Positions 2,130-35,079 of a DNA stretch of 35,079 nucleotides are shown here, piece after piece. A program made the translations under genes and the position numbers. Origin of the DNA: a virus; the IMG/VR virus record IMGVR_UViG_3300006845_000013, positions 1-35,079 of that record; one strand, given 5' to 3'. The notes below the pieces were generated by a model. The model saw nothing but the letters and a program-made list of their open reading frames with translations. It ran no database searches and was not told the origin of the DNA. The number at the start of each line of letters is the position of its first letter. Position 1 is the stretch's first letter.

Positions 2130-2849
2130 ATGCCGAACCTCAATCGGATCGATGTCCGTTGCCTGCCGGGGTTGTTCGCGTGGTATGATGCGAACTACAT
2201 CAACGGGTTCGGCAACGCCCAACCCGCCGCCGATGCGGCGGTGGCGCAATGGAACGATCTCTCGGGCAACGCGCGGCATCTGGCGCAAGGCACCGGGGCG
2301 AACCAGCCCTTGTTCCGGGCCACGGGGGGCCCGAACGGCTTCCCGTCGGTGAACTTCGTGGACGCCACGGATACGATGACGATCGCCACCGCTGGAGCGA
2401 TTGCGAGGCCGATCACCGTGGTGGCCTTGCTCAAGAACACCTTGGCGGATGACGCGGCGTATCACAAAGCGGCGACCTTCAACGCCGCCCGGATTGGGGT
2501 GGGTTTGGATTGGGCCACGGCGAACGCCTTCACGCCGTTTGACGATGCCGCCGCGCAAGCCGGAGGGACGGTCGCCGGGGATGTCACCACGTACCACATG
2601 GAAAGCTTCGTCGCGGCCCCGCTCAACTCGACCTCGCGGCAATGCGTGGACGGGATACACGCCTTCTCGGCGGGGATCGCTGGCACCAACACCAATTCGG
2701 ACGTGACGGTAGGTGGCGCGTCGTGGATTGGGCATCTGTGTGAAGTGATGGTCTTCACGCAGGACTTGGGGCCGTCGCAGCTCTGGGCCTTGGAACAAGC
2801 GTTGTGTGAAAAATGGGGCATGATTTCCAGTTACGCCTTACAGCGGTAG
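2130..2849 (+). CDS. LamG/concanavalin-like jellyroll protein, probable tail fibre or virion decoration
   Basis: 239 residues from ATG 2130, two bases after the adaptor stop. The N-terminus 'LPGLFAWYDANYINGFGN' with 'VAQWNDLSGNARHLAQ' is typical of LamG-like/laminin-G-3 jellyroll domains often found in phage tail fibres and virion surface proteins. The fold usually binds carbohydrate. The C-terminal 'GHLCEVMVF..DLGPSQLWALEQALCEKWGM' matches the end of such domains. It lies between the adaptor and the tail hub, so a virion-surface, possibly host-binding, role is likely. The stop TAG is embedded in a strong Shine-Dalgarno sequence for the next gene. Confidence 0.7.
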   Translation: MPNLNRIDVRCLPGLFAWYDANYINGFGNAQPAADAAVAQWNDLSGNARHLAQGTGANQPLFRATGGPNGFPSVNFVDATDTMTIATAGAIARPITVVALLKNTLADDAAYHKAATFNAARIGVGLDWATANAFTPFDDAAAQAGGTVAGDVTTYHMESFVAAPLNSTSRQCVDGIHAFSAGIAGTNTNSDVTVGGASWIGHLCEVMVFTQDLGPSQLWALEQALCEKWGMISSYALQR

Positions 2850-2854
2850 GAGGG
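2848..2854 (+). promoter_or_regulatory. Strong Shine-Dalgarno site before an AUC codon
   Basis: AGGAGGG, formed partly by the stop codon TAG of the preceding gene, with a 7-nt spacer to ATC 2862. This site decides the start of the tail protein at 2862. Confidence 0.7.
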
Positions 2855-2861
2855 TAGGCGC

Positions 2862-3809
2862 ATCGCCACGACCTTCACCACGAACTACGGGTTCGACAAG
2901 CCCGCCATCAGTGACCTGAACTGGGGCGGGATGCGAAACACGAACATGGATGACATCGACGCGGAGTTGGCGAAGCCGCGTCTGATTCAGTCCGCCCTCT
3001 CGTGGAGCGCGACGACGACCATCGACTGCTCGCTCGCCCGCGCCTTCACGGGGACGAACACGCAGGTCACAACGATTGCGTTCTCGAACGTCCCGACCTC
3101 GACGTTCTTCACGCGGCTCTGGCTCAAGATCACCAACGGGGCCGCCTTCGCGATTACGTGGCCCGCCTCCGTCGTCTGGGAAAACGGCGACGTGGACCCG
3201 GTACTCACCGCCTCCGGGGTGGATATCATCGGGCTCATCACCTACGACGGCGGCACCACGTGGTACGGCTCAGTGCTCCACCAGAAAGCGTTTGTGATCG
3301 GCGGCGACCTCCAGCAAAACGGGAAGGTCGTCTCCCGGATCGGGGGCAGCACCGGCACGAACCGGGTGGCCCACACCATCTTCACCGCCGCCAATCGGAC
3401 CACGACTTCCACGACGCTGACGGCGGTCGCTAGTTACACGCTCCCCGCCGCAAGCTTGGATCGCAACGGCGCGGGGCTCTATATCACCTACTCGGGCCTC
3501 GTGGGCGCGACGGATACCTTGGTCACCTTGGTCTGGGGGGCGACGACGCTCGCCAGCTTCACGGTCCTCGCGGGGAATCGGTTCTTCTTGCAGGCGTGGG
3601 TGATTCGGCGGGCGACGAGTTCGCAGCGGGTGGATATGCTGCTCGTGAACAATGCCGCCGTGTCGCAACCCGTGTCGGCCAATCCCACGGAGAATGAAGC
3701 CAGCGCGCAAGGCGTGACGTTCGGCTGTGACCAGACGGGCGCGGGGACGTTTACCCTGCAAACGGCCACGATTGTGTACCTCGATCCTGACACCACGAGC
3801 GTGAGCTAG
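2862..3809 (+). CDS. Tail fibre/structural protein with apparent AUC start
   Basis: 315 residues if read from ATC 2862. The natural N-terminus is x-ATTFTTNYGFDKPAISDLNWGG, a common phage tail-protein start, followed by 'MRNTNMDDIDAEL'. No ATG, GTG or TTG exists in frame upstream of ATG 2931, and starting there would remove this conserved-looking segment. AGGAGGG at 2848-2854 sits 7 bases before the ATC, an ideal ribosome-binding distance. The middle ('FAITWPASVVW...GGTTWYGS') resembles small beta domains repeated in phage tail proteins, and the C-terminal third is beta-rich. The stop overlaps the next GTG (TAGTG). The coding call is firm; the AUC start is inference. Confidence 0.7.
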   Translation: MATTFTTNYGFDKPAISDLNWGGMRNTNMDDIDAELAKPRLIQSALSWSATTTIDCSLARAFTGTNTQVTTIAFSNVPTSTFFTRLWLKITNGAAFAITWPASVVWENGDVDPVLTASGVDIIGLITYDGGTTWYGSVLHQKAFVIGGDLQQNGKVVSRIGGSTGTNRVAHTIFTAANRTTTSTTLTAVASYTLPAASLDRNGAGLYITYSGLVGATDTLVTLVWGATTLASFTVLAGNRFFLQAWVIRRATSSQRVDMLLVNNAAVSQPVSANPTENEASAQGVTFGCDQTGAGTFTLQTATIVYLDPDTTSVS

Positions 3810-24149: not shown

Positions 24150-24431
24150 CTGGCCACCAAAGCGCAGGCGCTCCAGGACCTGGCCCAGCTCCGCGACCTC
24201 CACGATTGGCGTATTGCCTTGACCTACGGGCCGCTCCCTCGCATTAGCGGGGTGGATGCCTATGCGGGGTCCAGCGCTCCCGAGCGACTGATTCCTAGTA
24301 CCTTGCGGTCGGTGCCCGCCTCGCTCAATGCGATTTATCGGGCGGCGGATTGGCTCCTCGAAATCGCCCCGGAAGAACCGCATACCCTCGTGATGGACGG
24401 CGCTGCGCTGTGGCGGGCTGATGGCCGCTAA
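24150..24431 (+). CDS. Hypothetical protein with apparent CUG start
   Basis: 93 residues if started at CTG 24150. The frame is closed by TGA at 24144, so only CCG and CTG codons precede the natural-looking N-terminus x-ATKAQALQDLAQLRDLHDW. The first standard start is TTG 24219, which would remove 23 residues. No good ribosome site is seen for either. The rest reads 'YGPLPRISGVDAYAGS' and 'SLNAIYRAADWLLEIAPEEP'. Its 3' end overlaps the small terminase by 11 bases. The coding call is fair; the start is uncertain. Confidence 0.5.
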   Translation: MATKAQALQDLAQLRDLHDWRIALTYGPLPRISGVDAYAGSSAPERLIPSTLRSVPASLNAIYRAADWLLEIAPEEPHTLVMDGAALWRADGR

Positions 24432-29251: not shown

Positions 29252-29389
29252 ATGGGATTCCAAGGCACGGTGACCCCGGCTTCCAAGGAGAAGTTGGAGC
29301 GGGAGATCGCGGAACTCGAAGCGAGCGGCGCGAATCCCCGGAAACTCGAAGCCCTGAAAGCGGTGCTGAAAGATCACTATGGCGACTAA
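29252..29389 (+). CDS. 45-residue helical protein
   Basis: ATG 29252 directly follows the portal stop, with GGAGGGGG upstream at about 29240. The peptide contains 'SKEKLEREIAELEASGANPRKLEALKAVLK', a charged helical hairpin. It overlaps the next gene by 11 bases. Possibly an assembly cofactor. Function unknown. Confidence 0.6.
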   Translation: MGFQGTVTPASKEKLEREIAELEASGANPRKLEALKAVLKDHYGD

Positions 29390-29783
29390 CCCGCATTTCC
29401 TCGAAGCGGACCGCAACACCTTTCTGGACGCCATCGACACGTCGATTGGCGCCTCGGGCTTCCTGCGTATCTACGACGGGACGCAGCCCACGAACGTCGC
29501 CACCGCCCTCGGGGCACAGGTGAAGCTCGCGGAACTGCCCTTGTCGGCCACGGCCTTCGGGGCCGCCGCCGCCGGGGTTCTGACCGCGAACGCCATCACG
29601 GCGGATGCCTCGGCGGACGCCACGGGGACCGCGACGTGGGCGACGCTCACGACCTCGGCGGGCGTGCGGAAGGTCGATATGTCTGTGGGCACCTCCGCCG
29701 CCGATTTGATTTTGAACTCCACGTCCATCACCGCCGGGGCCAACGTCGCGTGCTCGGCGGGGACCATCACCTTCCCAGCCTAG
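29379..29783 (+). CDS. Minor structural protein, beta-rich
   Basis: 134 residues from ATG 29379. It begins 'ATNPHFLEADRNTFLDAID', then has 'GFLRIYDGTQPTN' and alternating A/T/G/V beta strands typical of phage virion decoration or tail-tip proteins. The stop TAG forms part of the Shine-Dalgarno sequence of the next gene. The position between portal and scaffold supports a head role. Confidence 0.6.
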   Translation: MATNPHFLEADRNTFLDAIDTSIGASGFLRIYDGTQPTNVATALGAQVKLAELPLSATAFGAAAAGVLTANAITADASADATGTATWATLTTSAGVRKVDMSVGTSAADLILNSTSITAGANVACSAGTITFPA

Positions 29784-29787
29784 GAGG
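29782..29787 (+). promoter_or_regulatory. Strong Shine-Dalgarno site before an AUC codon
   Basis: AGGAGG, again partly formed by the stop TAG of the preceding gene, 5 bases from ATC 29793. This is the same arrangement as at 2848-2862. Confidence 0.7.
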
Positions 29788-29792
29788 CTTCC

Positions 29793-30626
29793 ATCCTTTG
29801 GGTTCCCCAGAAAGGCCCACTCCGGGTCCAGCACAATGCCGGGACCGTCGGCGCCGCGACGCCGGGGACCGCCGTCACGACCGGGGCTGCCGAGGCGACC
29901 AAAGGCAGTTACGTCTCGCTCCTCACCACGACGTTCGATGTCTACTGGATATCGATCTATGCCCTGAACTACGGGAGCGCCGCCGCCGATTCCCAAGGGG
30001 CGATGGATATCGCGACGGGGGCGGCCACGCAAGAAATCATCATCCCCGATCTCTTGATGGGGTTTGCGGGCTGGTTCACGAGCACCGCCATCGGGCCGAA
30101 GCAATGGCATTTCCCGCTCTACATCCCGAACGGCACGCAAATCTGGGCGCGCGGTGCGGGCAAACGCCTCTCGACGGCGTACAACGTCGTCATTTACGTC
30201 TACGGCGGGGATGCGCTGCCCCCGTTTCGCGTCGGCCGGAAGGTCACGACCTACGGCATGGGCACCGTGCCGTTTGGGACGACCATCGTGCCGGGGGCCT
30301 CGGCGGCGGAGGGGGCATGGACGCAAATCACCGCCTCGACGAGCGAAAACCATTTCGCGTTCTATCCGAGCTTCCAAGCGGGCACCGACACGACGCTCAA
30401 TACGCTCGCGTATTTCGTGGATATCGGGACCGGCGCGGCGACCGAACTCGAAATTGGGCAGTCGTTCGTGTACCACATGACGGCGGATGAACGCATGGAC
30501 GGGCCGTGGAACACGTTTCCCGCGTTTGCGGATGTGCCATCCGGGACGCGCCTGGTGATGCGGTGCTCGAACAGTGGAGTCAACGATGTCGGCAACTATA
30601 ACGGCGTCATCCACGCCGTCAGCTAA
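29793..30626 (+). CDS. Structural protein with apparent AUC start
   Basis: 277 residues if read from ATC 29793. The natural N-terminus is x-LWVPQKGPLRVQHNAGTVG and the frame has no ATG, GTG or TTG before ATG 30003, 70 codons in. AGGAGG at 29782-29787 is 5 bases upstream of the ATC. The protein is beta-rich with Gly, Thr and Ala: 'AATQEIIIPDLLMGFAGWF', 'WHFPLYIPNGTQIWARG', 'VGRKVTTYGMG' and 'SGTRLVMRCSNSG'. It likely belongs to virion decoration or fibre proteins. Coding is firm; the AUC start is inference. Read-through of the upstream TAG is the alternative. Confidence 0.65.
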   Translation: MLWVPQKGPLRVQHNAGTVGAATPGTAVTTGAAEATKGSYVSLLTTTFDVYWISIYALNYGSAAADSQGAMDIATGAATQEIIIPDLLMGFAGWFTSTAIGPKQWHFPLYIPNGTQIWARGAGKRLSTAYNVVIYVYGGDALPPFRVGRKVTTYGMGTVPFGTTIVPGASAAEGAWTQITASTSENHFAFYPSFQAGTDTTLNTLAYFVDIGTGAATELEIGQSFVYHMTADERMDGPWNTFPAFADVPSGTRLVMRCSNSGVNDVGNYNGVIHAVS

Positions 30627-30635
30627 GGAGGACGT

Positions 30636-30887
30636 ATGGCCAAAGCGATGGTGACGGAGTGCTACGCGCTCGACATTGAGGACAATCTCTACAAAATCAC
30701 CGGCACGGCGGCGGTGACCACCGGGTCCTCGGGCCACATCTTCCTGACGTTCGAGGCGTCGTCGCCCACGTTTATCCCGGTGCTCCCGAATTGGCGCACG
30801 CGGGTGCGGGATGCCGTGATTGACGCGGCGGCGGCGGAAAACATCGAGGTCGATCAAGTGCTGCACATCGACTTGTCGATTTTGTGA
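30636..30887 (+). CDS. Small structural protein
   Basis: 83 residues from ATG 30636, with AAGGAGG upstream. The beta-rich layout 'CYALDIEDNLYKITGTAAVTTG' and 'GHIFLTFEAS' is followed by a helix 'RVRDAVIDAAAAENIEVDQVLHID'. Probably a minor virion protein. The stop overlaps the next GTG. Confidence 0.6.
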   Translation: MAKAMVTECYALDIEDNLYKITGTAAVTTGSSGHIFLTFEASSPTFIPVLPNWRTRVRDAVIDAAAAENIEVDQVLHIDLSIL

Positions 30888-34937: not shown

Positions 34938-35079
34938 GCGACACCACGATGATCCTCGATACTGACCCCCTGACGGGGCGGGTGCGGACCTTTCACACGC
35001 TGCCCGATGGGCGGTTCGCCGTGGACAGCGCGGTGGACGTGGAGCCGATCATCGAGCAGAACAAGGACCTCGCGCCGTT
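34934..35079 (+). CDS. Conserved phage protein of unknown function, 5' part (continues to 284)
   Basis: GTG 34934 is the chosen start. It overlaps the previous stop and opens V-SDTTMILDTDPLTGRVRTF, in frame with the segment at 3-284 across the circular join. The whole protein is about 109 residues. Confidence 0.75.
   Translation, partial: MSDTTMILDTDPLTGRVRTFHTLPDGRFAVDSAVDVEPIIEQNKDLAP
34980..35079. repeat. Terminal direct repeat, copy 2 (circular closure)
   Basis: Exact copy of positions 1-100. Joining 34979 to 1 restores an uninterrupted reading frame for the gene that starts at 34934, which supports circular closure. Confidence 0.95.

Follow-up and report, generated by a model that had tools for sequence, protein, structure and literature searches.

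Two virion-gene junctions with an ATC codon at the probable gene start

The window, that is, the whole 35,079-nt stretch of viral DNA analysed here (IMG/VR record IMGVR_UViG_3300006845_000013), represents a phage known only from metagenomes. It carries an exact 100-base direct repeat (positions 1–100 and 34980–35079) and contig L001 spans the point where the two ends meet, which makes the window a whole genome, circular or circularly permuted. At the first junction of interest (site 1, 2130–3809, plus strand), a gene of a PHROG virion structural protein family (2130–2849) ends at a TAG stop (2847–2849) that overlaps the Shine-Dalgarno (SD) sequence AGGAGGG (2848–2854; anti-SD duplex of −10.7 kcal/mol). 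Seven bases follow (2855–2861) and then the codon ATC (2862–2864), from which the frame stays open as far as TAG 3807–3809. The gene so delimited (2862–3809) consists of 315 codons plus stop and is tail fibre-like, judging from PHROG tail fibre families and its relatives. Similarity to relatives places the start of the upstream gene at ATG 2130; the first ATG listed for it, 1968, is not its start. The bases agree with the sequence-only reading, which had pointed to a perfect SD 7 bases before ATC 2862 and to the lack of any ATG, GTG or TTG before 2931: none lies in frame between the stop at 2847–2849 and ATG 2931, the first in-frame canonical start, 23 codons past the ATC. An Rfam family search across the window, junction included, found no RNA element, and local folds at the junction were ordinary (z from −1.18 to 1.31 in 7 sequences). 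The structure model of the fibre protein was unusable (mean pLDDT 42).

A second gene of this kind, absent from the sequence-only reading, is described here for the first time. A codon-usage gene caller run on the window delimited a 277-codon gene whose sole listed start candidate is ATC 29793, with a strong SD, in CCTAGGAGGCTTCCATCCTTTGGG; the codon (29793–29795) is preceded by TAGGAGGCTTCC. This junction (site 2, 29379–30626, plus strand) repeats the arrangement of site 1: a virion structural gene (PHROG 3758, 29379–29783) ends in a TAG that forms part of TAGGAGG (29781–29787; −10.2 kcal/mol), followed by the ATC gene (29793–30626, 277 codons plus stop). AGGAGG stands 8 nt ahead of ATC at site 1 and 5 nt at site 2, in both cases a working distance. 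The second gene is located within the portal, scaffold and capsid block (SU10-type portal and capsid) and its product is predicted to be all-beta. A TTG in another frame (29798), at a distance of 10 nt from the SD, begins a reading frame of 230 codons, but the relatives support the ATC frame. A fold search with the second ATC protein returned only weak beta-sandwich matches with TM-scores below 0.4, which were set aside. Stretches resembling PGTxxTPGAxxAEGAWTQI occur in both halves of its alignment, which suggests an internal duplication. In the closest relative, L131, nothing aligns with the start of the small gene that follows (30636–30887, TAAGGAGGACGTATG), and the next gene is immediate. 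Capsid relatives were detected in two MAG contigs, one of which (L160) gave no usable match when searched for the ATC genes.

The pattern TAGGAGGN{4,9}ATC has two matches in the window, whereas shuffled sequences contain 0.11 on average, and at least two matches occurred in 0 of 100 shuffles. TAGGAGG itself is present in two copies in the 35-kb genome, both overlapping an upstream stop and both ahead of ATC. Among all sequences gathered, script and hand reading identified 16 distinct cases of TAGGAGG after a stop, followed by ATG, GTG or TTG in six, by ATC in five (including L020, assigned by hand, whose gene runs off the contig) and by neither in five. Since TAGGAGG also precedes ordinary starts elsewhere, its link with ATC is a trait of these phages. 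Beyond the two, neither the simple codon-usage gene caller nor a scan for AGGAGG revealed any ATC gene in the window. The last broad pattern scan added 13 loci, of which 11 were unconvincing and two (L151, at position 1153 on the plus strand, and L154, on the minus strand) share one unrelated gene. There, TCTAGGAGGAAACT-ATC-GCTACTACAACT opens a 246-codon gene for a Sak4/RecA-like ATPase (IATTTTTEFPELPFMKL...) in an unrelated phage with a G+C content of about 45%, with the next in-frame ATG 14 codons on. Known relatives gave no alignment at the first residues; the gene is a possible third case of an ATC start. Elsewhere in the window, a coding-like frame (24150–24431) begins CTG GCC ACC AAA GCG right after a TGA, its first ATG, GTG or TTG being TTG 24219. 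This may be a CTG start without a clear SD, and no relatives of the frame were found among the gathered loci or phage records.

First codons and Shine-Dalgarno strength among relatives

Site 1 was compared in 18 contigs carrying the junction, including the window, collected by junction-directed IMG/VR scans and by one scan with the downstream gene (the first source of L025, L027 and L028). Weak relatives of the upstream gene with a different downstream gene or a contig end (L125–L127) and chance pattern matches (L102, L107) were left out. The codon aligned with ATC 2862 is canonical in 11 contigs: ATG in nine (L021, L022, L027, L028, L004, L005, L025, L104 and L106), TTG in one (L115) and GTG in one (L116). 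The remaining seven contigs, representing four distinct sequences, have ATC; they comprise the window, the same-phage contigs L001, L002 and L006, and the diverged L003 (67% identical protein), L020 and L109. The proposal that ATC 2862 is the apparent start codon, for which an ATG at the aligned position of relatives was the suggested check, thus gains support from the canonical codons found there. In three pairs, ATC and ATG precede near-identical N-termini: the window (IATTFTTNYGFDKPAISDLNWG) vs. L027 (MATTFTTNYGFDKPAISDLNWG), L003 (IADTTTTNFAL) vs. L021 (MADTTTTNFAL) and L020 (IADTTTTFLALTKP) vs. L025 (MADTTTTFLALTKP). In L116 (position 4616), the frame of the fibre GTG, which abuts the stop, breaks after 10 codons (VATTFTTNCT*) and another frame goes on, perhaps owing to an insertion. 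Integrated relatives of the fibre gene were sought in genome_contigs and none was found.

The change of codon is accompanied by a change in the surroundings. In all canonical types of site 1, the start directly abuts the stop, and the anti-SD duplex is +0.2 kcal/mol in 9 of 9 ATG types, −6.5 kcal/mol in the TTG type and −4.0 kcal/mol in the GTG type. All ATC types, in turn, possess a TAG stop, a perfect AGGAGG and 9 or 12 bases from stop to start, with duplexes of −10.7 kcal/mol (three sequences) or −10.2 kcal/mol (L109). Two kinds of leader precede the codon, TAGGAGGGTAGGCGC-ATC and TAGGAGGCGGGT-ATC; L109 has the latter, shorter one and nevertheless retains ATC. The 18-base leader (GGAGGGTAGGCGCAT.GC) occurs with ATG in L018 (7168–7185), before an unrelated gene (MAKGPMVTPRF...), probably by chance. 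On a single origin of ATC, the trees of the upstream gene disagree: the protein tree needs three changes and the DNA tree one, the latter with weak support (37/74).

At site 2, 19 loci were fetched and 17 were read, and in 14 the first codon could be aligned; L130 (truncated ahead of it), L146 (partial) and L143–L145 (too distant at the residue level) were left out. The first codon is ATG in eight, TTG in two and GTG in two, making 12 relatives with a canonical start aligned to ATC 29793, and ATC in two, both copies of the window phage, so that ATC at site 2 was encountered in a single phage. One of the eight (L138) has its ATG one codon upstream of the aligned start. In L131, whose protein is 90% identical, stop and start overlap in CCTGATGTTATGG and no SD is present. 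SD strength separates the types more cleanly at site 1, since at site 2 the GTG relatives L139 and L140 are preceded by sequence resembling an SD (−10.7 and −6.3 kcal/mol, respectively). Comparison of the window with L131 reveals exchanges of ATG, GTG and TTG at the starts of further genes, too; judged by these alignments, such variation is normal in these phages and ATC is not.

All of these data are metagenome assemblies, in which misassembly or, as the sequence-only reading had allowed, a sequencing error could have made ATC of an ATG. We regard such an error as scarcely credible. Site 1 is identical in contigs of three other samples (3300050510, 3300006853 and 3300050509), samples 3300050500 and 3300050510 yielded site 2 unchanged, and ATC recurs in three diverged site-1 sequences. 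Its persistence behind two different leaders likewise means that ATC 2862 is no sequencing error. As far as sequence comparison reaches, the position of the codon, its SD, its conservation and its exchange with canonical starts are well established.

Selection on the N-terminal codons and the competing readings

The codons after ATC 2862 vary mostly at synonymous positions. Between the window and L027, codons 2–24 differ by eight synonymous and two amino-acid changes, the latter at codons 23 and 24, which leaves 8 synonymous and 0 amino-acid changes in codons 2–22. The corresponding figures are 17 and 1 for L003 vs. L021 (codons 2–27), 9 and 0 for L020 vs. L025, and 10 and 3 for L003 vs. L020, both of which have ATC. 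Compared with random single changes, the binomial tails are 1e-4 (window/L027), 2e-9 (L003/L021) and 1e-5 (L020/L025). By this measure, the codons after ATC 2862 are read as protein and are under purifying selection.

This bears on the reading in which translation starts only at the later canonical codons, 2931 and 30003, and the preceding part is untranslated. Standard gene finding would indeed put the starts there, as both are in the list of open reading frames. We consider this very improbable, as the codons ahead of these positions are under purifying selection. The start at 2931, named as an alternative in the sequence-only reading, is disfavoured by the absence of amino-acid changes in codons 2–22 and by the ATG itself, which is not conserved (ATT in L027). 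At site 2, a start at ATG 30003 would delete four strands and truncate the fifth in a fold that is predicted with confidence (mean pLDDT 87.9). The gene caller, whose candidates lie only near predicted starts, listed no strong SD at either position.

The main rival to AUC initiation is UAG readthrough, by which the downstream frame would be produced solely as a C-terminal addition to the upstream virion protein, with ATC as a plain isoleucine codon. Purifying selection on the N-terminal codons agrees with either reading and by itself does not separate them. Moreover, both ATC genes, and that of L109 too, are in frame with the upstream gene, with 9, 9 and 12 bases from stop to ATC. Yet, in-phase gaps of 0, 3 and 9 bases are common in the genome, and two of the 9-base gaps precede ATG genes. 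Programmed readthrough is expected where homologues of the downstream region have no start of their own; the relatives, however, have ATG, GTG or TTG as the downstream gene's own start at the very same codon. Readthrough also leaves unexplained why AGGAGG lies at 5–8 nt, and why the same codon, ATC, is found in two unrelated genes and in four site-1 sequences. On balance, we find readthrough unlikely. Recoding of TAG throughout the phage was excluded, because TAG terminates 6 of 24 checked genes.

Initiation at AUC thus stands against these readings with the features of a near-cognate start: the conserved N-terminus has no canonical start, the homologues have one there, and an SD lies at working distance. 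We conclude that the tail fibre-like gene very probably begins at ATC 2862, and the second virion-block gene at ATC 29793, where formyl-methionine would be set at AUC by way of a perfect SD that overlaps the upstream stop.

Probable initiation at AUC and its possible role

The initiator tRNA, with its anticodon CAU, pairs with AUC through a C-C mismatch at the third base, and to our knowledge AUC is almost never used to begin a protein. No tRNA gene was found in the window when a phage-encoded initiator tRNA was sought. Gene 26* of bacteriophage T4 has an internal AUU start. It resembles the present cases as a near-cognate start in a phage structural gene; unlike that internal, secondary AUU, AUC is here the sole start and replaces canonical codons.

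A possible course of events is as follows. Ribosomes finishing the upstream gene would stop at the UAG inside UAGGAGG, and after termination the perfect SD would hold the 30S subunit there. The 30S subunit so held would have AUC, which lies 8 or 5 nt past AGGAGG, in its P site, and the initiator tRNA could begin there with formyl-methionine in spite of mismatching at the third base. This would likely serve to supply proteins required in small numbers at a low, coupled and IF3-sensitive dose. In the relatives, similarly weak initiation may be achieved by AUG, GUG or UUG abutting or overlapping the stop. We hypothesize that both architectures, AUC with SD and abutting NTG, are weak and IF3-sensitive, which would fit proteins required in few copies. 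From the arrangement we infer that AUC initiation uses fMet, that it is coupled to translation of the upstream gene, that it is sensitive to IF3 and that it yields a low dose. More tentatively, UAGGAGG-N5/8-AUC might be a dedicated stop/SD/start module, in which the SD, overlapping the stop, catches the ribosome as it terminates and lets it restart at AUC, so that minor virion proteins are made at a fixed, IF3-sensitive fraction of upstream output; in this phage lineage, such a module would take the place of stop/NTG abutments or overlaps at two unrelated junctions and be shared across divergent fibre alleles. We consider this extension doubtful rather than probable.

Several known systems offer partial parallels. 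The IF3 gene infC has an ATT start in E. coli and an ATC start in Streptomyces (PMC5472188); it shares with our genes a natural near-cognate AUH codon at the beginning, and AUC itself is on record there. AUC starts are therefore already known as a kind. infC is, however, a cellular, autoregulated gene, whereas here virion-block genes of a phage are concerned, twice per genome, with an SD overlapping the upstream stop. The same report describes sigR of Streptomyces, which starts with GTC and is repressed by IF3 (PMC5472188). It resembles our cases in that a non-canonical start holds a single protein to a low dose; in contrast to them, it involves another codon in a cellular gene, and its dose effect was measured, while the dose here is inferred. 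In vitro, third-base mismatches with the initiator tRNA are weak, and IF3 diminishes them (PMC10158994). High levels of IF3 in E. coli suppress non-canonical starts as well as re-initiation without SD (PMC2268962). In the same source, M13 gene VII, coding for a minor virion protein, is thought to undergo weak, IF3-sensitive initiation after its upstream gene (PMC2268962), a phage virion gene in this respect comparable to ours. Gene VII is treated there as re-initiation without SD, so that it is the ATG, GTG and TTG relatives that resemble M13, whereas the AUC genes have a perfect SD. No phage gene with an AUC start was among the hits listed by literature searches of largely open sources, which is weak evidence of absence. 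What is new is the presence of two probable AUC starts in one phage, both where relatives are canonical and both with the same stop/SD overlap.

Start prediction assumes ATG, GTG and TTG as the only permissible starts, as stated in PMC5472188; therefore genes such as the two AUC genes are truncated or lost. The use of AUG, GUG, UUG and AUC at the same codon across phages, with the SD changing alongside, amounts to a natural experiment on the trade-off between start codon and SD, and AUC initiation beside a stop codon becomes directly testable by simple reporters.
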